Below the pieces are notes generated by a model, which worked only from the letters and a program-made list of their open reading frames with translations, did no database searches and was not told where the DNA came from. DNA of 64,000 bases from Methanosarcina sp. (GTDB taxonomy: Archaea > Halobacteriota > Methanosarcinia > Methanosarcinales > Methanosarcinaceae): NCBI RefSeq assembly GCF_028693135.1, contig NZ_JAQUVZ010000001.1:124001-188000 (forward strand), read 5' to 3'. Below, one piece after another: positions 30,197 to 63,680 of the stretch; the stretch's first letter is position 1; each line of letters opens with the position of its first letter. The position numbers and the translations under genes are program-made.

Positions 30197-30223
30197 AAAG
30201 GGCGTCTAAACTTTTAGATTTAC

Positions 30224-30327
30224 TGAGCTTTTAGCTTTATTGAGCTTTTAGCTTTATTGAGCTTTCAGTTGTTATACTGAACTTTTAGCTTTATTGAGCT
30301 TTCAGTTGTTATACTGAACTTTTAGCT
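30224..30327. repeat. Tandem array of 17- and 20-bp units
   Basis: The units are TGAGCTTTTAGCTTTAT (30224, 30241), its variant TGAACTTTTAGCTTTAT (30278), and a TGAGCTTTCAGTTGTTATAC unit (30258, 30295). The array runs across the stop codon of the gene at 30309. The 17-bp period and the core CTTTYAGCTTT are shared with the array at 36960. Confidence 0.85.
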
Positions 30328-36830: not shown

Positions 36831-36959
36831 TTACCAGAACTCTGCTTCATCGATAAATTCATTTTACAGGTAGAAAAGGTTCTAAGTTGCTCTTTTGATC
36901 CACCGAAATTATACCCAGGCTGTCTTAGCTTGATCTCCTGAAAATCTCATACTATTTTT

Positions 36960-37152
36960 ACAATCTTTCAGCTTTTACAATATTTCAGCTTTAACAATCT
37001 TTCAGCTTTAACAATCTTTCAGCTTTAACAATCTTTCAGCTTTTACAATCTTTCAGCTTTTACAATCTTTCAGCTTTTACAATCTTTCAGCTTTAACATC
37101 TTAGCTTTTACAATCTTTCAGCTTTAACATCTTAGCTTTTACAATCTTTCAG
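36960..37152. repeat. 17-bp tandem array, about 12 units
   Basis: The main unit is ACAATCTTTCAGCTTT(T/A). Two shortened units (ACATCTTAGCTTTT) and one with ACAATATTTC interrupt it. It fills the gap between two convergent genes and contains no spacers. Its core matches that of the array at 30224. Confidence 0.9.
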
Positions 37153-48379: not shown

Positions 48380-49807
48380 ATGAGCAAATTGGAAAAACTT
48401 CTAAAGGAACGCGGCCCTATCAAAAAAATAGGAGTACTTGGCATGGGTTATGTAGGAATCCCTGCAGCCGTCTTATTCGCAGATGCTCCCTGTTTTGATA
48501 AAGTACTGGGCTTCCAGCGCAACTCAAAAAGCTCAGGCTACAAGATTGATATGCTCAACAGGGGAGAAAGCCCGCTCAAAGGGGAAGAGCCAGGCCTTGA
48601 AGAACTCATTGAAAAGGTCGTAAAAGCAGGCAAGTTCGAGTGTACCCCCGATTTCTCAAGGATCTCCGAACTTGATGCAGTTACACTTGCAATTCAGACT
48701 CCTTTTGCAAATCCCAGAGACCTGATACCCGATTTCAGCGCACTCATAGAGGGGATCAAAAACGCAGGAAAATACCTGAGGCCGGGTATGCTTGTAGTCC
48801 TCGAATCCACAATCACTCCGGGAACAACTGAAAGAATGGCAAAACAGATCCTTGAGGAAGAGTCCGGTCTGAAAGCAGGCGAAGATTTTGCCCTTGCCCA
48901 TGCCCCTGAAAGGGTAATGGTAGGCAGGCTTTTGAGAAACATCAGAGAACACGACCGGATAGTAGGCGGAATTAATGAGGCAAGCACAAAAAGGGCTGTT
49001 GAGCTTTACTCCCCGGTGCTCACTGTAGGAAAAGTTATCCCGATGAGTGCAACTGCGGCAGAGGTTACAAAAACTGCGGAGAACACTTTCCGTGACCTTC
49101 AAATTGCAGCAATCAACCAGCTTGCCCTTTACTGTGAAGCCATGGGTATAAATGTCTATGACGTCAGGGACGGGGTTGACAGCTTAAAAGGCGAGGGGAT
49201 AACAAGAGCTGTCCTCTGGCCCGGAGCAGGGGTTGGAGGCCACTGCCTGACCAAAGATACATACCACCTGGAAAGGGGAGTTAAGATCGGGACAGGACAG
49301 CTGGACTATCCCGAAGGTGCGGATTCAATCTACGTGCTTGCCAGAAAAGTCAATGACTTTATGCCTGAACACATGTACAACCTGACTGTTGCCGCCCTTG
49401 AGAGGCTTGGAAAGAAAATGAAGGGCTCAAAGGTTGCAATGCTCGGCTGGGCATTTATCAGCGACTCTGACGATGCCAGGAACACGCCTTCAGAACCGTA
49501 CAGAGACTTCTGCCTGAAAGCCGGAGCCAGTGTCATGGTGCACGACCCATACGTTGTCAATTATCCGGACGTTGAGATTTCGGATAACCTGGAAGAGGTT
49601 GTAAAAGGTGCGGATGCTGTAATAGTGCTTGCGGGGCACAGTGCATACTCTGAAGTGACAGCTGATTGGGTGAAGAAAGTAAGTGGGAAAACGAATCCGG
49701 TAATTGTTGATGGGAGAAATGTAGTTGAGCCGGATGAGTTTATTGGAAAAGGGTTTGTGTATAAGGGGATTGGGAGGGGAGATAAAAACTCACATGAGAT
49801 AATATGA
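48380..49807 (+). CDS. UDP-N-acetyl-hexosamine dehydrogenase (WbpA-like)
   Basis: A 475-residue nucleotide-sugar dehydrogenase. It has the NAD motif GVLGMGYVGIPAA (18-30), VLESTITPGTTERMAKQ, AHAPERVMVG, AEVTKTAENTFRDLQIA and the catalytic Cys289 in GVGGHCLTKDTYHL. This GGHC loop is of the UDP-GlcNAc/UDP-ManNAc type, unlike the GGSCFPKD loop of Ugd at 22554, so the substrate is probably N-acetylated. It would make UDP-N-acetylglucosaminuronate, the first step of the pathway encoded by the three genes upstream. A terminator begins at its stop codon. Confidence 0.92.
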   Translation: MSKLEKLLKERGPIKKIGVLGMGYVGIPAAVLFADAPCFDKVLGFQRNSKSSGYKIDMLNRGESPLKGEEPGLEELIEKVVKAGKFECTPDFSRISELDAVTLAIQTPFANPRDLIPDFSALIEGIKNAGKYLRPGMLVVLESTITPGTTERMAKQILEEESGLKAGEDFALAHAPERVMVGRLLRNIREHDRIVGGINEASTKRAVELYSPVLTVGKVIPMSATAAEVTKTAENTFRDLQIAAINQLALYCEAMGINVYDVRDGVDSLKGEGITRAVLWPGAGVGGHCLTKDTYHLERGVKIGTGQLDYPEGADSIYVLARKVNDFMPEHMYNLTVAALERLGKKMKGSKVAMLGWAFISDSDDARNTPSEPYRDFCLKAGASVMVHDPYVVNYPDVEISDNLEEVVKGADAVIVLAGHSAYSEVTADWVKKVSGKTNPVIVDGRNVVEPDEFIGKGFVYKGIGRGDKNSHEII

Positions 49808-50917: not shown

Positions 50918-51299
50918 AAAAATAAATTGACCTTCATTTACAATAATAAAACAACATCAATCGGCAGCTCAAAGAAGATTATTTCTTGTTAGAGATATGG
51001 TTGCCTCAAAATAGATTAATTTGATTGATGTTGACCCAGGGAATTCAGATTGATCGAAAGTTAACAGTGACTTTCTGTTAAAGATCCAATAATTATTTTA
51101 TCCGTATATATAGAGACTATAATCCTCTGTAAACTACCTCATCCTCTGTAAACTACCTTATCCTCTGAAAACTACCTTATCCTCTGTGAACTACCTTATC
51201 CTCTGAAAACTACCTTATCCTCTGAAAACTACCTTATCCTCTGTGAACTACCTCACGCTAAAAAAATTGGGATTTCTGCTTTTTTCACGAAAAAATAAG
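50918..51299. other. Spacer containing a minisatellite and a degenerate IS end
   Basis: The array at 51124 ends in GTGAACTACCTCACGCTAAA (51243-51262), which reads like the AACTACC-stem-CTAAA end structure of IS200/IS605 elements in degenerate form. No gene is seen. Confidence 0.45.
51124..51254. repeat. 19-bp tandem array, 7 units
   Basis: The units CCTCTG(T/A)(A/G)AACTACCT(T/C)AT start at 51124, 51143, 51162, 51181, 51200, 51219 and 51238, exactly 19 bp apart. There are no spacers. The word GTGAACTACC recurs at the IS end near 52892. Confidence 0.92.
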
Positions 51300-51700
51300 G
51301 CAGGATGCTTTTGACTTTAGTCATGAGAGGAATGCCGTCAATTTTCTGGCATTCCTTTCATGTTTGGATTTCTCCACTCTGCTTTGGAAACGAATTTCCT
51401 CCGCAGGTAACGTACTTTCGTATCTCCTCTCGCCAATGTTGGATATGCTTGTTATGTGTAACACACCGCCCCTACCTCTCAGGACTTTTAATGCTACACG
51501 ATAGAGCTACAAACTGAGGAAGCATTAGCAGGTATCATGACATTTCCAACGTAGTCAATTAAGACTCAGGCTGGTCAACCGGGGCACTATTACATGCCTG
51601 CCACTTTAGTGACGGGTAGTTGACTGTAACCATCTGGAGATATCAGCTGGGTCAATTACTCCCCACTAAAGTAGGGAGCTTGCGTTTCTAGGTCTTAGTT
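51300..51700 (-). ncRNA. Candidate TnpB guide RNA (omega RNA) region
   Basis: About 390 bases lie between the tnpB stop and the right end, longer than a simple terminator. They contain GC-rich hairpins, for example CTCCC/GGGAG at about 51661-51680 and GAATGCC/GGCATTC at 51331-51355. In characterised TnpB elements the guide RNA is made from this position, and the flanking DNA past the right end acts as guide. Here that guide would be the bases just below 51300. Placement is inferred from position and structure only. Confidence 0.45.
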
Positions 51701-52774
51701 TCCTAAGCAGAACACCATAAGCCGATTGACGGCGGCTCGAAGCATGATATTTTTTGAAGCATTGAAATCAGCATTTTCGGTATGACCACATTCAAGGCAA
51801 GCGAAAGTTTCTTGTGTTTTTCTGTTCTTTTTATTGGTATATCCACATACAGAACATTGCCTTGATGTGTTTCTAGGATCGACAAGATCAACACTAACAC
51901 CTAGAAGTTTTGCTTTATATTCAATGAAATTTCTAAGTTCGAAAAATGCCCATTTCTCATGCTTTTCTCTTTCTGCTTTCCTAACCGTAGTCCTCTGTCT
52001 AATACCTGAAAGATCTTCAAGAGCAATAGAACAGTTCGTGTCTTTAGCAGTTTGAACAATTTCTTTAGAAATACAATGATTGGTATCTTTTTTGAACCTT
52101 CGTTCTCTGCCACTTATTTTTATAAGATGTTTTTTAGCAGAATAAGTACCAACATGTTGAAGAATAGCTTTGATTTTTGAATATCTTTGTCTAACTTTAG
52201 TGCATTTGTCACCGGAATATACTTTTCCATCAGAAGAAACAGCAAGATTAACTATTCCAAAATCGACACCAATAATTCCGTTTGGATCAATTGGTTCTGC
52301 ATCTGGAAGTTCGACAACAATCATTAGATAGAAAGTACCATCTTTGTAGATAAGATCAGCTTGTCCTCTGACTCTATTATAATCAAGTTGACGATATTCG
52401 CCGTACTTTATTCCAACCTCAATTCTACCATCTAAAGTTAGAATGGAAATAAGATCAGGTCTTTTAATAGCTAAAATTCGCTGATCATAAACAATAGATC
52501 CATGAAGGTTAAATTCATGTAATACCTTTTTATCTACTTTATAACTTTCAGCTACTTTTCCTAAAGCCCTTACTACCATTTGGGAAGATAGACCATATTT
52601 CTCTCTGATCTCATAATATATTTCTTTTTGGAGAGCAATCTTTCCAAATTTCTTTTTTTTATATGCAAAGACAGAAATAAGATTACATGCCTCATTGAAC
52701 CTTTCCATAGTTTTTAATAATGAGGTCTTTTGATCATGATTTGTAATCAGTTTAGTCTTAACTGTCAATAGCAT
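51695..52774 (-). CDS. tnpB: TnpB RNA-guided nuclease (IS605 OrfB family)
   Basis: A 359-residue TnpB with all three RuvC catalytic residues: Asp171 in IIGVDFGIVNLAV, Glu253 in ALEDLSGIRQ and Asp336 in ENADFNASKNI. The zinc finger is intact (Cys307, Cys310, Cys326 and Cys329 in CSVCGYTNKKNRKT and CLECGH). An N-terminal helical/RuvC-insert region (1-160) has the usual KTKLI start. TnpB proteins cut DNA guided by an RNA from the element's right end and help keep the element in place. No tnpA is present. The ATG at 52774 fits the family start. Confidence 0.93.
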   Translation of the reverse strand: MLLTVKTKLITNHDQKTSLLKTMERFNEACNLISVFAYKKKKFGKIALQKEIYYEIREKYGLSSQMVVRALGKVAESYKVDKKVLHEFNLHGSIVYDQRILAIKRPDLISILTLDGRIEVGIKYGEYRQLDYNRVRGQADLIYKDGTFYLMIVVELPDAEPIDPNGIIGVDFGIVNLAVSSDGKVYSGDKCTKVRQRYSKIKAILQHVGTYSAKKHLIKISGRERRFKKDTNHCISKEIVQTAKDTNCSIALEDLSGIRQRTTVRKAEREKHEKWAFFELRNFIEYKAKLLGVSVDLVDPRNTSRQCSVCGYTNKKNRKTQETFACLECGHTENADFNASKNIMLRAAVNRLMVFCLGN

Positions 52775-53532: not shown

Positions 53533-55041
53533 ATGGATGAAAAGACAGCAGAAACAGCAGAAAAGCCATCTAAAAACAAAAAGAAGGCAAGTTTTGTATC
53601 AGATGTGCTGACACTCGCAGGCGGAACAACCTTCGCTCAGATCCTTACGGTTCTGGCAGCTCCTGTTCTGACCCGTCTTTACGGACCGGAGGATTTTGGA
53701 GTCTGGGCTCTTTATATGTCTATCACGAGCATTATAAACGTGATTGCATGCCTGAGGTATGAGTTCTCTATAATGCTGCCGGAATCAGACGAGGAAGCAG
53801 TAAACCTTCTAGGTCTGAGTTTCTTGGCAGTCCTTGTTATTACCAGTTTAACCGTGCCATTTGTCTGGTACTTCAAAGCTCCGCTAATTGATCTTCTAAA
53901 TGCCCCACAAATCGGAGATTATCTCTGGCTTGTGCCTCCGTTTGTGTTTGTAAACGGGGTTTTTCTCGCACTTAACCAGTGGAACTCAAGAACAAAACTC
54001 TTCAAGAGACTTTCCTTCGCAAGAGTTTTCAGTTCGGTTTCGACCACTGCAACCCAAATAACCCTCGGAATTGCAGAACATCCCCCAACTGCAACTGGCT
54101 TAATCGGCGGCAGCCTTGCAGGTCAGTCTGTAGCGACATTCGTGCTTGGAGGGCAGATCTGGAGAGACGATAGAAAACAGATAACAAAGAGCCTGAGCTG
54201 GAAAAAAATATATGAAGGCGCTATACGGCACCGCAAACTTCCACTCATAGACAGCTGGTCTGCCCTTATGAACTCCATCTCCTGGCAACTTCCGGCTTTT
54301 CTTCTTTCAGCCTTTTTTGCTCCTGCGGTGGTTGGCTTTTATTCCCTCGGGTTCCGCCTGCTCCAGTTACCGATGAGTTTTATTGGCGGTTCGATCTCAC
54401 AGGTATTTTATCAGAGGGCATCAAGAGCAATATCAGACGGCACCCTCAGTATTCTTGTTGAAAATGTTTTCAGAATGCTTGTGCTCATAGGCATGTTCCC
54501 TATATTGGTTCTCACAATTGTCGGAAGCGATGTCTTTACCGTTGTTTTTGGGAGTGCCTGGACAGAAGCAGGAGTCTACGCCCAGATCCTGAGCCTCTGG
54601 GCATTTATATGGTTTATCTCATCCCCTTTAACCACAATATACCTGGTAGTAGAAGAACTTCACTTTGGCTTTAACTACAATTTTTTCAATCTACTGACTC
54701 GCTTCCTGTCCCTTACAATTGGCGGAATGCTCGGAAGCGCCCGTCTAGCCCTTGCCCTTTTCTCCATATCAGGCATTGTGGTGTACGGGTACCTATGCCT
54801 GAAAATGATGTATTACTCAGGGGTAAAGACCTCAAGAGCGCTGAAAATAGTATTCTCAAACCTGGTCCTCTTTACCCCTGCAGGAGCAGTCCTGATAGCT
54901 CTCAAAACAGCAGGAATAAACCAGGTCATTCTTGTTGTAATTTCCGGTTTGAGTATCGGCATTTATTATATATATATACTGAAAACCGATAGACAGGTAA
55001 AAGAGATAATAGGGGAATTAAAAATTCCGGGAAAAGCATAA
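53533..55041 (+). CDS. Polysaccharide flippase (MOP/Wzx-like), third of three
   Basis: A 502-residue protein with about 14 helices. After a lysine-rich cytoplasmic start (KPSKNKKKASFVSDV) it has LTLAGGTTFAQILTVLAAPV, LTRLYGPEDFGVWALYMS and RYEFSIMLPESDEEAVNLL. It is closely similar to the flippase at 14307 and should export a lipid-linked glycan unit. It is alone on its strand, followed by two single-pass surface protein genes. The ATG at 53533 lacks a clear ribosome site, but no other start fits better. Confidence 0.88.
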   Translation: MDEKTAETAEKPSKNKKKASFVSDVLTLAGGTTFAQILTVLAAPVLTRLYGPEDFGVWALYMSITSIINVIACLRYEFSIMLPESDEEAVNLLGLSFLAVLVITSLTVPFVWYFKAPLIDLLNAPQIGDYLWLVPPFVFVNGVFLALNQWNSRTKLFKRLSFARVFSSVSTTATQITLGIAEHPPTATGLIGGSLAGQSVATFVLGGQIWRDDRKQITKSLSWKKIYEGAIRHRKLPLIDSWSALMNSISWQLPAFLLSAFFAPAVVGFYSLGFRLLQLPMSFIGGSISQVFYQRASRAISDGTLSILVENVFRMLVLIGMFPILVLTIVGSDVFTVVFGSAWTEAGVYAQILSLWAFIWFISSPLTTIYLVVEELHFGFNYNFFNLLTRFLSLTIGGMLGSARLALALFSISGIVVYGYLCLKMMYYSGVKTSRALKIVFSNLVLFTPAGAVLIALKTAGINQVILVVISGLSIGIYYIYILKTDRQVKEIIGELKIPGKA

Positions 55042-58294: not shown

Positions 58295-58975
58295 TCAGGG
58301 AATAACTTTTGTTTTAATGAGAGATAACTCACGTTCTATGGTTGAAATCCTTTCATCAAGATGAGACCTGAAATTATCCCGGGTTAAGCGGATTTCGGAT
58401 GTTATTTCCACTCGAGCCTGATCTATTTTATTGCCCAGCACATCAATTTTTCCGCCGAGATAGTCCAGTTTTCCGCCGAGGAAATTAATTTTCCCACCGA
58501 GGGAATCCATTTTCCCACCGAGGGAATCCATTTTCCCACCGAGGGAATCCATTTTCCCACCGAGGGAATCCATTTTCCCACCGAGGACATCAATTTTCCC
58601 ACCAATGGAGTCCATTTTCTGGCCGAGGTTAGAATTAATTTCTCGAATATATCTCGCAGCCACATCCATTCTTTCATAAGTTGCTGTGGTCAGATCCTCG
58701 TCTCTGATAAGCTCAAATGTTGTATACTCACCTGTTGGCTGTTTGTAGACCACTTCTATATTTTCTACACGAATGGGATATTGAGTTATGTTAATTTTTG
58801 TGAGCAATTCGCTAATGGTGTCTTCGTCCCCTTCGCAAACAACCTGTACTGCCCCGTCATCAAGATTTTTAACATATCCGTTGAGATTTAGATTAAAAGC
58901 AATCTCATCAATGAAATCTCTGAAACCTGCTTTTTGGACTCGACCATATACTTTGATCTCGGCACGTTTCTCCAT
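58295..58975 (-). CDS. Acylphosphatase fused to an exact heptad-repeat coil
   Basis: A 226-residue protein. Residues 1-92 form an acylphosphatase domain (VYGRVQKAGFRDF with catalytic Arg19; GYVKNLDDGAVQVVCEG with Asn37), which hydrolyses acyl phosphates. Residues about 119-190 are ten heptads of the type KMDSLGG, four of them identical, and a further helical tail (about 185-226) follows. Regular Met/Ile/Leu at two positions of seven suggests a multimerising coil, but the GG pair in each heptad is unusual for a coiled coil. The domain mix is not one I know. The ATG at 58975 is without a strong ribosome site. A fossil of a related gene lies at 62480. Confidence 0.82.
   Translation of the reverse strand: MEKRAEIKVYGRVQKAGFRDFIDEIAFNLNLNGYVKNLDDGAVQVVCEGDEDTISELLTKINITQYPIRVENIEVVYKQPTGEYTTFELIRDEDLTTATYERMDVAARYIREINSNLGQKMDSIGGKIDVLGGKMDSLGGKMDSLGGKMDSLGGKMDSLGGKINFLGGKLDYLGGKIDVLGNKIDQARVEITSEIRLTRDNFRSHLDERISTIERELSLIKTKVIP
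58501..58584 (-). repeat. Four identical 21-bp repeats encoding heptads
   Basis: Units of GGGAATCCATTTTCCCACCG plus A start at 58501, 58522, 58543 and 58564 and are identical. More diverged units lie on both sides. Seven-codon units keep the frame, so copy number can change without breaking the protein. Confidence 0.95.
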
Positions 58976-59225: not shown

Positions 59226-59234
59226 ACTATATAT
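59226..59234 (+). promoter_or_regulatory. TATA box of the ATPase gene
   Basis: ACTATATAT lies about 26-30 bases before the ATG at 59260, the spacing expected for a leaderless archaeal transcript. Confidence 0.5.
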
Positions 59235-59259
59235 GGTCCTGCCTATTATATTGATTATT

Positions 59260-60441
59260 ATGAACAGGCCCTTTATGTATGGAAAACCTGTAGCAAAACC
59301 CTATTTTGTGGATAGGGAAAATGAATCCGGGGTGCTGCTGGCTGAAATCGGGAATCTTAAGGACGGGACGTGCATGAACCTTGCAGTCCTCGGCCCGAGG
59401 AGAGTGGGTAAGACTTCCCTCATAAAGAATGTAATTCTGGAACTTGAAAACGAAGAAAAGGTAATCCCGGTTTTCATTGACTGCCTTTCGATGCCTTCCA
59501 TAAGGCGTTTTTCCAGTGTTTTTGTGGAGAATGCCAAAAAAGGGTATGTTGAAAAAACCAATGACGGAGCATACCTCACAAAACTTAATGAGTATCTGAA
59601 AAAAAGCGTTTCAGAGATTCTTTTAAAATTCTCCCAGCTGGACATCTCCATTGCTTCCTATATCTCGATAAAGTTAAGCATGGAAGACCCGAAAGCCGAA
59701 GAAGCTATACTCTTTGAAAATGCCCTGAATTACCCTGAAGAACTTGCAAAGAGTAAGGATGTATATTTTGTCGTATTCCTGGACGAATTTGCCGAGCTTG
59801 CGGAGAAAGAAAGAGACGAATTTCTAAAACTCCTGAGGACGGTTATCCAGCAGCAAACAAGGGTTATGTATATCTTTTCAAGCTCTGCCATGACCTATAT
59901 GAATGACATGGTATACCACAATAAAAGCCCTTTTTATAGGCAGTTGAAACCTGTTTTTATAGGACCTATTCCCGGGGATTGTGCCCGGAATTTTATAAAA
60001 GAACGGTTTTCCCTTGCCAGCTACTCTATAGGGGAAAAAGCTCTGGATGTGATGATGCAAAAAAGCAATTGTTTACCGGACTACCTCCAGCGCCTAGGAG
60101 ATGCTCTGCTTGACACTGCAAAAAACAATCCTATAAATGAAACCGATGTCTTTCTGGCCTACGAAGAAATTTTTGTAACCCTTGACCCCACCTTTTCCCT
60201 GGTCTTTGCAAGGCTGGGCGAGAATTCAAAAATTTATTCCGACATCGTAATCTCAACCGCCAGGTTCGCCAAACCTTCCCTGATTGCAAGAGATGCAGGA
60301 ATTCCTCCGGGTTCCCTGTACTATTACATACCCTACCTGATCAACCTGGGACTTATAAAAAAAATAGAGCCAGGCCAATACTGCCTGACTGATCCGATTT
60401 TCAAAGACTGGATAATCAGGAAGTTTCAGCTGGAAAATTGA
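59260..60441 (+). CDS. Archaeal AAA-type ATPase
   Basis: A 393-residue protein of the archaeal ATPase family. It has YFVDRENE at the start, Walker A GPRRVGKTS at about 46-54, Walker B VVFLDEFAEL, a sensor-like IFSSSA, and a C-terminal winged-helix part (IARDAGIPPGSLYYYIPYLI, GLIKKIEPGQYCLTDP). The start at 59260 is chosen because a TATA box lies about 28 bases upstream and there is no ribosome site, consistent with a leaderless mRNA; the ATG at 59233 overlaps the TATA box. It is followed by MntA and HepT in the same direction but 120 bases away. Family members often belong to mobile or stress-related loci; the specific role is not known. Confidence 0.8.
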   Translation: MNRPFMYGKPVAKPYFVDRENESGVLLAEIGNLKDGTCMNLAVLGPRRVGKTSLIKNVILELENEEKVIPVFIDCLSMPSIRRFSSVFVENAKKGYVEKTNDGAYLTKLNEYLKKSVSEILLKFSQLDISIASYISIKLSMEDPKAEEAILFENALNYPEELAKSKDVYFVVFLDEFAELAEKERDEFLKLLRTVIQQQTRVMYIFSSSAMTYMNDMVYHNKSPFYRQLKPVFIGPIPGDCARNFIKERFSLASYSIGEKALDVMMQKSNCLPDYLQRLGDALLDTAKNNPINETDVFLAYEEIFVTLDPTFSLVFARLGENSKIYSDIVISTARFAKPSLIARDAGIPPGSLYYYIPYLINLGLIKKIEPGQYCLTDPIFKDWIIRKFQLEN

Positions 60442-60561: not shown

Positions 60562-61017
60562 GTGATCAGCTTTATGCAGCCCGTTATTCCACAATCAGAT
60601 ATTAAACAGCTTGAACAGAAGCTAAGTGACTTTTTTTCAAGAGTTGAGAGCGTTACATTAGCCTATCTTTTCGGCTCAACTGCCAGGGGAGAAGCTAACT
60701 GCTTGAGCGACACAGATATCGCTGTGCTTTTTGATGATACTCTTTTACAAAAGGAAGCTTTTGACCTCCAGCTGGGATTACTAAGCGAACTTACAGTCCT
60801 TCTACAAACGAACAATATAGACCTTGTGGCACTCAATGATTCCCCTCTCCTTTTGACATACAACATTATACGTGACGGGATCATTTTAAAGTCCGATGAG
60901 CCTTTAAGGGTAAAATTTGAGACAAAAATCATGTCCAGATACCTGGACGAGCGGTATCACATTGAGAGGCATGCAAAAGAAAGCCTGAAAAGGATAGCAG
61001 AGAGCGGGTTTCGATGA
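60562..61017 (+). CDS. mntA: MntA-type nucleotidyltransferase antitoxin
   Basis: A 151-residue minimal nucleotidyltransferase. The active-site signature GST(10)DxD is present as LFGSTARGEANCLSDTDIAV (Gly38-Ser39, Asp50, Asp52). In MntA/HepT pairs it neutralises the HEPN toxin by adding AMP to a tyrosine of the RX4HXY motif. The GTG at 60562 is annotated; an ATG at 60574 is also possible. Its last codons overlap the hepT start by 4 bases, as is usual for this pair. Confidence 0.9.
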   Translation: MISFMQPVIPQSDIKQLEQKLSDFFSRVESVTLAYLFGSTARGEANCLSDTDIAVLFDDTLLQKEAFDLQLGLLSELTVLLQTNNIDLVALNDSPLLLTYNIIRDGIILKSDEPLRVKFETKIMSRYLDERYHIERHAKESLKRIAESGFR

Positions 61018-61436
61018 TAAAAGAGATAAACTTCAAACTCGAACAGCTTGGGGAGTATGTCAGCGCCCTCAGAGAATATCAACAGTACGATATAGAGGAG
61101 ATAAGGAATAACCGTACTTTGAGGGGAGCGGTTGAAAGGTATATGGAAGTCTCCCTTGCCTGCATGATTGATATCTGCGAGATGATCGTTTCCAGCGAGA
61201 AATTGAGGCGGCCGGACACTTACAGAGAAGTTATCCTGGTACTTGGCCAGCACAAGATTCTCCCAGAGGAGTTTGCCAAGAAGCTGGCACCTGCTGCCGG
61301 TTTCAGAAATGTGCTTGTACATATGTATGCAGATATCGACCTGGGGAAGCTTTACTCTCACCTCCAAAATGACATTGACGATCTGGAACTTTTTGCCGGA
61401 TACATTGCAAAGTACCTGATTTCCAAATACGAATAA
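61014..61436 (+). CDS. hepT: HepT-type HEPN ribonuclease toxin
   Basis: A 140-residue all-alpha HEPN protein (DUF86 type). The RX4HXY motif is intact as Arg98 to Tyr105 in FRNVLVHMYADIDL. It would cut RNA or tRNA unless modified by MntA. The ATG at 61014 overlaps the mntA stop. It is the downstream member of a complete pair. Confidence 0.92.
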   Translation: MIKEINFKLEQLGEYVSALREYQQYDIEEIRNNRTLRGAVERYMEVSLACMIDICEMIVSSEKLRRPDTYREVILVLGQHKILPEEFAKKLAPAAGFRNVLVHMYADIDLGKLYSHLQNDIDDLELFAGYIAKYLISKYE

Positions 61437-61785: not shown

Positions 61786-62201
61786 TTAAAGATAATTTAA
61801 GTCCATCACGTCTACAACGAGCTTCGCCTTTTCCAGCATTTCCTGATCCAGAGTGACCAGGGGTATATCAAATTCTTTTGCAACCTGTATCACTATGGCA
61901 TCCATACCCCTTACCCCGATCTCAGCTGCAATTTCAGCTGCATCTGCCGCACTTTCAGCATCAAGCCCCATGAAACTGATCGTATTTATTGCAAGCAGGT
62001 CATTCCTGACCCTGAGGGCAAGTTCCTTTGACCCTGTCCTTCTTTTTAAAGCGGCAGTGACCTCAATCAGGACCGTATAAGGCTCGATGGCAATGTGGCT
62101 GCCATCTTTTACTTTCCGCAAGACATCCTTTGCAGCAAGATGGCTTTTTTCCTGCTTTCGCAAAGCTGTTAAATCACGGAACTGTCCAGGCATATATCCA
62201 T
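61786..62201 (-). pseudogene. vapC: VapC-type PIN toxin, broken by a one-base frameshift
   Basis: The ATG at 62201 starts a canonical VapC N-terminus (MDICLDSSVI, with the first catalytic Asp), then hits a stop four bases on. In another frame, from near 62165, the rest continues intact to 61786: TALRKQEKSHLAAKDVL, EVTAALKRRTGS, VRGMDAIVIQVAKEFDIPL and LVTLDQEMLEKA. Adding one base at ATTTAA restores a complete PIN protein of about 137 residues. The four acidic positions are present once the frames are joined. The start lies 4 bases after the putative antitoxin stop. It could be a true null allele or an assembly error. Confidence 0.82.
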
Positions 62202-63134: not shown

Positions 63135-63392
63135 CTAAAAGTCCCTGTAGACTTTGCTCCGATGAGCCACGCTGATAACATGTATGATTAATCTGTCATC
63201 TATAATTTCAAGAATTACGCGATATTTGCCGGTGCGATAGCTGAAAAAAGGATTCCCTTTTAATTTTTTCACATGAGAATGAGGGTCGCTGCTTATGTAT
63301 TCCAGATTTTCAAGAATCTTTTCTACAACATTTTCTGGAAGGTTCTTCAAATCCCTCCTCGCTCTGGAAGAAAACAATATGGAATATCCCAT
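63135..63392 (-). CDS. relE: RelE/ParE-type toxin
   Basis: An 85-residue toxin: YSILFSSRARRDLKNLPENV, VKKLKGNPFFSYRTGKYRVI and IDDRLIIHVISVAHRSKVY. The Arg/Lys pattern and the final H-x-S-x-x-Y are normal for RelE, which cuts mRNA on the ribosome. The ATG overlaps the antitoxin stop (TAATG), showing a coupled operon. Confidence 0.92.
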   Translation of the reverse strand: MGYSILFSSRARRDLKNLPENVVEKILENLEYISSDPHSHVKKLKGNPFFSYRTGKYRVILEIIDDRLIIHVISVAHRSKVYRDF

Positions 63393-63568: not shown

Positions 63569-63616
63569 ATAAAAGAATATAGAGCAGGAATAAAATATTA
63601 ACATTTTGGTCAACTG

Positions 63617-63680
63617 CCCGAATTGCGACTCGCCCGAATTGCGACTCGCCCGAATTGCGACTCGCCCGAATTGCGCCTCG
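63617..63680. repeat. Four 16-bp tandem repeats
   Basis: CCCGAATTGCGACTCG at 63617, 63633 and 63649 and the variant CCCGAATTGCGCCTCG at 63665. The last runs into the R1 repeat (GGGAGTACGCGGTC) also seen at 61465. The array expanded from that unit. Confidence 0.93.

Follow-up and report, generated by a model that had tools for sequence, protein, structure and literature searches.

Sequence comparison indicates that acylphosphatases bearing a long heptad-repeat tail form a distinct family, apart from the sampled tail-less acylphosphatases, and that the tail is a real part of the protein, under purifying selection about as strong as that on the head. The member described here is encoded in the window (the whole 64,000-nucleotide stretch of Methanosarcina DNA that was analysed) by a reverse-strand open reading frame of 226 codons, in which an acylphosphatase domain, a heptad tail and a C-terminal helix follow one another in that order (Table 1). 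An earlier sequence-only reading had described the protein as an acylphosphatase with a heptad coil attached, and both halves of that description are borne out: the head by its PF00708 match together with Arg19 and Asn37, and the tail by a pronounced seven-residue periodicity. The same reading knew of no family with this build, which proved mistaken, as a large family exists in methanogens and ANME-type archaea. We lean towards interpreting these proteins as active oligomeric enzymes mounted on a rod that repeat recombination can adjust, and weigh this below against three alternatives.

Table 1. Features of the coil-tailed acylphosphatase gene and of two neighbouring genes (positions in the window).
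Feature	Position	Strand	Evidence
UDP-glucose/GDP-mannose dehydrogenase	48380..49807	+	PF00984 and partner domains; 8.5 kb from the coil-tailed gene
Polysaccharide flippase-type protein, part of the adjoining surface-glycan cluster	53533..55041	+	PF13440, E 1.3e-22
Coil-tailed acylphosphatase gene, 226 aa	58295..58975	-	Open reading frame; orthologues of the same layout; full-length coding constraint
Acylphosphatase domain, residues 6-88	58712..58960	-	PF00708, E 6.2e-20; PDB acylphosphatases by sequence and predicted fold
Putative catalytic Arg19 codon	58919..58921	-	R in 77/78 tailed members
Putative catalytic Asn37 codon	58865..58867	-	N in 76/78 tailed members
Lys15 codon, replacing the phosphate-loop Gly of canonical acylphosphatases	58931..58933	-	K/R/E/M/N/Q/D in 74/78 tailed members
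Helical linker, residues 93-119	58619..58699	-	Helix predicted from residue 95; conserved ATYERMDxAxRYxRExNSNL
Nine heptads KxDxxGG/N, residues 120-182	58430..58618	-	Repeat and periodicity analysis; 6-10 units in orthologues
Four identical 21-bp units, residues 134-161	58493..58576	-	Direct reading of the units
Tenth, degenerate heptad and C-terminal helical cap, residues 183-226	58298..58429	-	Cross-genus conservation; dN/dS 0.08-0.23

The acylphosphatase head and the family it defines

PF00708 is the only Pfam family to exceed its own cut-off in this protein (71.7 bits, against a cut-off of 22.5), and comparison with PDB sequences aligns the head over its whole length with solved archaeal acylphosphatases. 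Arg19 and Asn37 coincide with the conserved arginine and asparagine of the family. Structure prediction likewise assigns the head to the alpha/beta acylphosphatase fold: an AlphaFold2 monomer model built from five close sequences is fair to confident in this region, and its best structural matches reach TM scores, normalised by target, of 0.84-0.89, including 4oj3 (TM 0.89, rmsd 1.7).

The phosphate loop is where the tailed proteins depart from convention. Canonical acylphosphatases carry a VQGVGFR-like loop, whereas the loop here reads GRVQKAGFR and departs from the consensus GxVQGVxFR, to which the domain family is not strictly bound. Glycine occupies the position of Lys15 in 44 of 55 short proteins, and most of the short proteins without it are relatives of the tailed ones; in the tailed set it is replaced in all but four of 78 proteins, by Lys (31), Arg (27), Glu (8), Met (3), Asn (3), Gln (1) or Asp (1). 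The combination of an altered loop with retained Arg and Asn may mean that the phosphate chemistry is kept and the substrate is handled differently. Alternatively, the head might be non-enzymatic, binding a ligand or a protein while the coil serves as a structural or sensing scaffold. The near-universal replacement of the loop glycine would suit such a role, as would the lysine found in place of Arg19 in one Methanosarcina member (L003) and the large number of copies that ANME- and Methanothrix-type genomes carry, which is odd for a housekeeping enzyme. We nonetheless regard a purely binding head as unlikely, because conservation of the arginine and asparagine at the frequencies listed in Table 1 would be difficult to account for if the head did not catalyse a reaction or at least bind phosphate, and tail-less members with the same altered loop also retain both residues.

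Within Methanosarcina the gene is accessory, with strong matches in 8 of 24 same-genus genomes; the others yielded weak matches only, mostly to the canonical acylphosphatase or to long frames of HypF size. More broadly, a profile of the Methanosarcina type recovered long acylphosphatase frames throughout the class, with up to ten matches per genome, and relatives were placed on named Methanosarcina and Methanothrix contigs. A broader profile detected such long frames across numerous methanogen-type and ANME-type families within the phylum, and short canonical frames in families that we take, from their lineage, to be haloarchaea and Archaeoglobi. A search of the open-access literature gave no published description of a coil-tailed family. 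A mobile or phage origin was considered and rejected, as viral contigs, phages and plasmids gave acylphosphatase heads alone and no coil-tailed relative.

We gathered 136 distinct proteins, including 78 with a gap-free tail of at least 50 residues (median 123, maximum 211). In a tree of the heads, based on 95 columns and a canonical set drawn mainly from the best Pfam matches, 77 tailed proteins of type A and nine short proteins, 86 rows in all, group in a single fork with support 100/97, and the 45 tail-less canonical heads branch apart from it. As the nine short proteins sit inside the tailed fork, they are probably tail losses or products of truncated contigs. Two divergent tailed proteins, of a second type (B), fall elsewhere on a long, unsure branch. 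Heptad sequence also varies by clade, with KxDxxG-type, KQDQMLE-type and SVxLGE-type repeats, and KIDQMNE is a further heptad seen in the family; runs with the GGK signature are most regular in Methanosarcina and occur in a few other members too. Two further architectures were noted among the relatives, namely a protein of 442 residues that combines an acylphosphatase head with what appear to be membrane segments (L175:4846-6174), and a coil-tailed acylphosphatase preceded by a PAS-like N-terminal part (L157:1138-2073).

The heptad tail: repetition, constraint and length

From residue 120 the tail reads KMDSIGG, KIDVLGG, four copies of KMDSLGG, KINFLGG, KLDYLGG and KIDVLGN, all following the general form K-[MIL]-[DN]-x-[LI]-G-[GN], and then KIDQARV. 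The claim of ten KMDSLGG-like heptads was thus slightly generous: nine units are good, and the tenth departs from the pattern. That four of the heptads are encoded by identical 21-bp units held true on direct reading, units 3-6 being copies of AAAATGGATTCCCTCGGTGGG, and Tandem Repeats Finder reports a period of 21 with 8.5 copies (score 230). The seven-residue period is not a product of chance, as self-identity at lag 7 is 0.41 (z = 14.6 against 500 shuffles), compared with 0.10 for the best of lags 4, 5, 6, 8, 9 and 10; lag-7 periodicity likewise exceeds z = 3 in 67 of the 78 tails.

The apolar positions expected of a coiled coil are present, with Met, Ile or Leu at one core position and Leu or Ile at the other. 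Where a is Met or Ile and d is Leu, a parallel dimer fits at least as well as a trimer; the trimeric or fibre-like rod that the sequence-only reading suggested might cluster the enzyme is a conjecture. The two glycines per heptad, at e and f, are unusual and disfavour helix. The AlphaFold2 model (mean pLDDT 57) places helices at residues 95-151 and 160-224 with low confidence, its pLDDT falling under 50 at residues 91-126 and 131-199. A long, lone coil chain modelled without its partner often receives low confidence, so this part of the model neither proves nor excludes a coil.

In comparison with eight orthologues, dN/dS was similar along the protein, at 0.05-0.21 in the coil, 0.09-0.22 in the head and 0.08-0.23 in the C-terminal cap. 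Close relatives retain the tail under this constraint, so the test that the sequence-only reading had set itself, that close relatives might lack the tail, does not overturn it. Its expectation that repeat number can change in frame is likewise upheld among the Methanosarcina orthologues, which carry six (L008), seven (L007), eight (L004), nine (L003, L005 and L033) or ten (L006) heptads, such that repeat number shifts between species in whole, in-frame steps; the four identical units in the window suggest a recent expansion. Heptad counts from short-read drafts need care, as draft assemblies break inside the repeat, with runs of N inside the coil repeat in L010, L036 and L141, and a contig of L011 that ends within it. 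Some members (L014, L015 and L016) have lost the tail altogether and, together with the lysine at Arg19 in L003, this indicates that neither feature is strictly required.

These observations bear on the proposal that the tail is neutral or selfish repeat growth on an ordinary housekeeping acylphosphatase, in which case the coil would be functionless and the head would simply remove acyl phosphates as usual. The expansion-prone 21-bp units, freely varying repeat number and occasional absence of the tail all speak for such growth. Functionless sequence would, however, be hard to reconcile with the low dN/dS of the coil, with a heptad register and C-terminal cap that are conserved across genera, or with a seven-residue period that persists despite unrelated heptad sequences. 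The family also has its own loop signature and branch, and the genome studied here already carries a canonical, tail-less acylphosphatase (L002). We therefore consider neutral growth improbable, and a little more so than a binding head.

Surface-glycan neighbours and exchange between paralogues

The dehydrogenase and flippase-type genes of Table 1 belong to a neighbourhood that also includes a sugar aminotransferase, a hexapeptide transferase and, at 34-41 kb of the window, glycosyltransferases; the dehydrogenase, flippase, sugar aminotransferase and glycosyltransferases share one side of the coil-tailed gene. Across 20 coil-tailed loci, UDP-glucose/GDP-mannose dehydrogenases made up 4 of 100 neighbours, and none was listed for 100 control-region genes. 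In complete genomes, 5 of 21 loci lay within 10 kb of a dehydrogenase, against 0.34 expected (0 of 20,000 shuffles reached this), and with one complete genome per genus the shuffled-position p was 0.0025-0.0027 at 10 kb; these shuffle p values are optimistic, because the dehydrogenase was the most over-represented neighbour family and was chosen after seeing the data. In the first set, 8 of 16 genomes had a UDP-sugar dehydrogenase gene no more than 10 kb from a coil-tailed one, and the draft genomes G257, G436 and G274, which had no part in the choice of hypothesis, show the link. In a second set, for which the hypothesis was named beforehand, the link recurred in 9 of 30 genomes (five Methanosarcina, G025, G232, G306 and G327), with Methanosarcina and the sister genus of G025 as new lineages. 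The association is missing at most ANME-type and many Methanothrix-type loci. Together these results lend moderate support to a glycan-related role for part of the family, and not for all of it.

Several broader associations were considered and rejected. A general enrichment of glycosyltransferases does not hold, as family 2 glycosyltransferases numbered 3 of 100 both near the loci and in the control. A fixed operon partner is not apparent either, since neighbours vary by locus, and although glycan genes and PIN domains recur, no constant pair does. HepT/MNT, PIN and ParE genes flank the window gene on its other side, but no constant pair of this kind accompanies its relatives, and a toxin-antitoxin link was rejected; in the window these toxin-antitoxin-type genes comprise a nucleotidyltransferase and HepT-like pair, a PIN gene and a ParE-like gene (60562-61436, 61786-62193 and 63135-63392). 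Besides the dehydrogenases, only archaeal AAA ATPases are enriched near the loci (five AAA_14 and three ATPase_2, with none listed in the control), and genes of ATPase_2 or AAA_14 type adjoin coil-tailed acylphosphatases in the window (59233-60441) and at L177 and L180. The glycan cluster itself contains an IS605 OrfB/TnpB-type (Cas12f-like) gene at 51695-52774, beside which lies an array of 19-bp tandem repeats (51122-51253). Other tandem arrays in the window lie at 2227-2587 (87-bp units), 30209-30327 (37 bp), 36956-37152 (17 bp) and 63616-63680 (16 bp).

Heads and tails appear to have been exchanged among paralogues. Genes of the B type, which are coil-tailed and in most cases carry V-H-x-x-GYR, were seen at L084:5278-5853, L089:9027-9617, L090:8759-9313 (whose protein falls below Pfam detection), L094:705-1319 and L098:8727-9335. 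In L084 and L089 the B-type gene (VHGVGYR or VHDVGYR) adjoins ordinary members with a matching tail: heads of the L084 pair are 25% identical, tails 71% and the last 45 residues 84%, and the corresponding values for the L089 pair are 30%, 87% and 100%, with a common DNA block 95.5% identical over 222 bases. Matched tails are not a rule, as the B-type tail does not match that of its neighbour in L090, L094 or L098. The reverse pattern is seen in G259, where four copies in two places (L169:4975-9310 and L170:5088-5834) have heads no more than one base in 276 apart, and tails that vary both in length and in sequence. This mixing is most simply put down to gene conversion, and matched-tail paralogues may, as a further reading, co-assemble.

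A coiled-coil ruler like that of WbdD, in which the head would remove or transfer a phosphate on a lipid-linked or nucleotide-sugar intermediate while the rod set the distance to a membrane or polymerase, is attractive and weakly supported, and is the least probable of the three alternatives: the dehydrogenase association, the one-sided glycan cluster, a rod length that varies by heptads and the precedent of WbdD, where the length of the coil determines that of the glycan (PMC5082667), speak for it. Against it, the association is confined to certain lineages and was in part found post hoc, the end of the tail showed no recognisable membrane anchor, many copies are located elsewhere, and an acylphosphatase is neither a kinase nor a methyltransferase.

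Proposed mechanism and relation to known systems

The interpretation that we favour, if with reserve, is an active oligomeric acylphosphatase whose rod is adjustable by repeat recombination and which may operate at a site of glycan assembly. The tail would form a parallel coiled coil of two or three chains, holding at least two active heads at the end of a rod some 15-20 nm long, on an estimate of about 130 helical residues at 0.15 nm each. The heads would hydrolyse an acyl phosphate or a similar phospho-substrate, the identity of which may be altered by the Lys or Arg of the loop. Heptads are gained and lost in frame, most simply via recombination between the 21-bp units, so that a change in rod length leaves the protein intact. 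The tail may also choose partners, given that paralogues within an array can have matched tails under different heads, and a role at a glycan-assembly site is favoured because the gene lies beside UDP-sugar dehydrogenase genes in several lineages. A more speculative extension, which we think improbable as a whole, is that methanogens and ANME archaea deploy this expanded family, with its altered phosphate loop, as enzyme rods of adjustable length at surface-glycan assembly sites, where matched tails allow mixed oligomers and recombination within arrays yields variants. What acylphosphatases do in the cell is not well established. A family that has grown to as many as ten copies per genome, with a changed loop and a constrained coil of variable length, offers a set of natural variants for telling apart by experiment the effects of head chemistry, oligomer state and rod length.

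The acylphosphatases of Sulfolobus solfataricus and Pyrococcus horikoshii (PDB 2bjd and 1w2i) resemble the head in sequence, fold and putative catalytic Arg and Asn, but are enzymes of about 90-100 residues with a VQGVGFR-like loop and no tail, whereas the present protein combines VQKAGFR with a tail of some 130 residues. The closest published trace of coil-tailed acylphosphatases that we found is a table row for subfam0779 of the Red Borg, an acylphosphatase with the seven-residue tandem repeat KLVEGQN (PMC9879509). It likewise joins an acylphosphatase annotation to a perfect seven-residue repeat, and the element that encodes it belongs to an archaeon that oxidises methane anaerobically; the likeness is one of description alone, and that study treats such repeats as mostly disordered and describes no coil-tailed family. 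Oligomerisation has precedent in the acylphosphatase protein cage (PDB 4hi2 and 6krb, with the related 4hi1 from Vibrio cholerae), which assembles via the head of a chain of about 90 residues with no coil tail, unlike the tail-mediated oligomer proposed here.

A parallel in architecture is WbdD of E. coli O9a, a proposed coiled-coil ruler whose coil has been shown to be trimeric and which has a C-terminal membrane contact (PMC5082667, PMC3482155). Both systems would place enzyme heads on a coil, the length of which is critical in WbdD, in a glycan context, but the kinase and methyltransferase domains of WbdD are unrelated to acylphosphatase, the sole domain above its cut-off here. If the glycan link is true, these proteins would provide an example from the archaea of an enzyme positioned by a coil.
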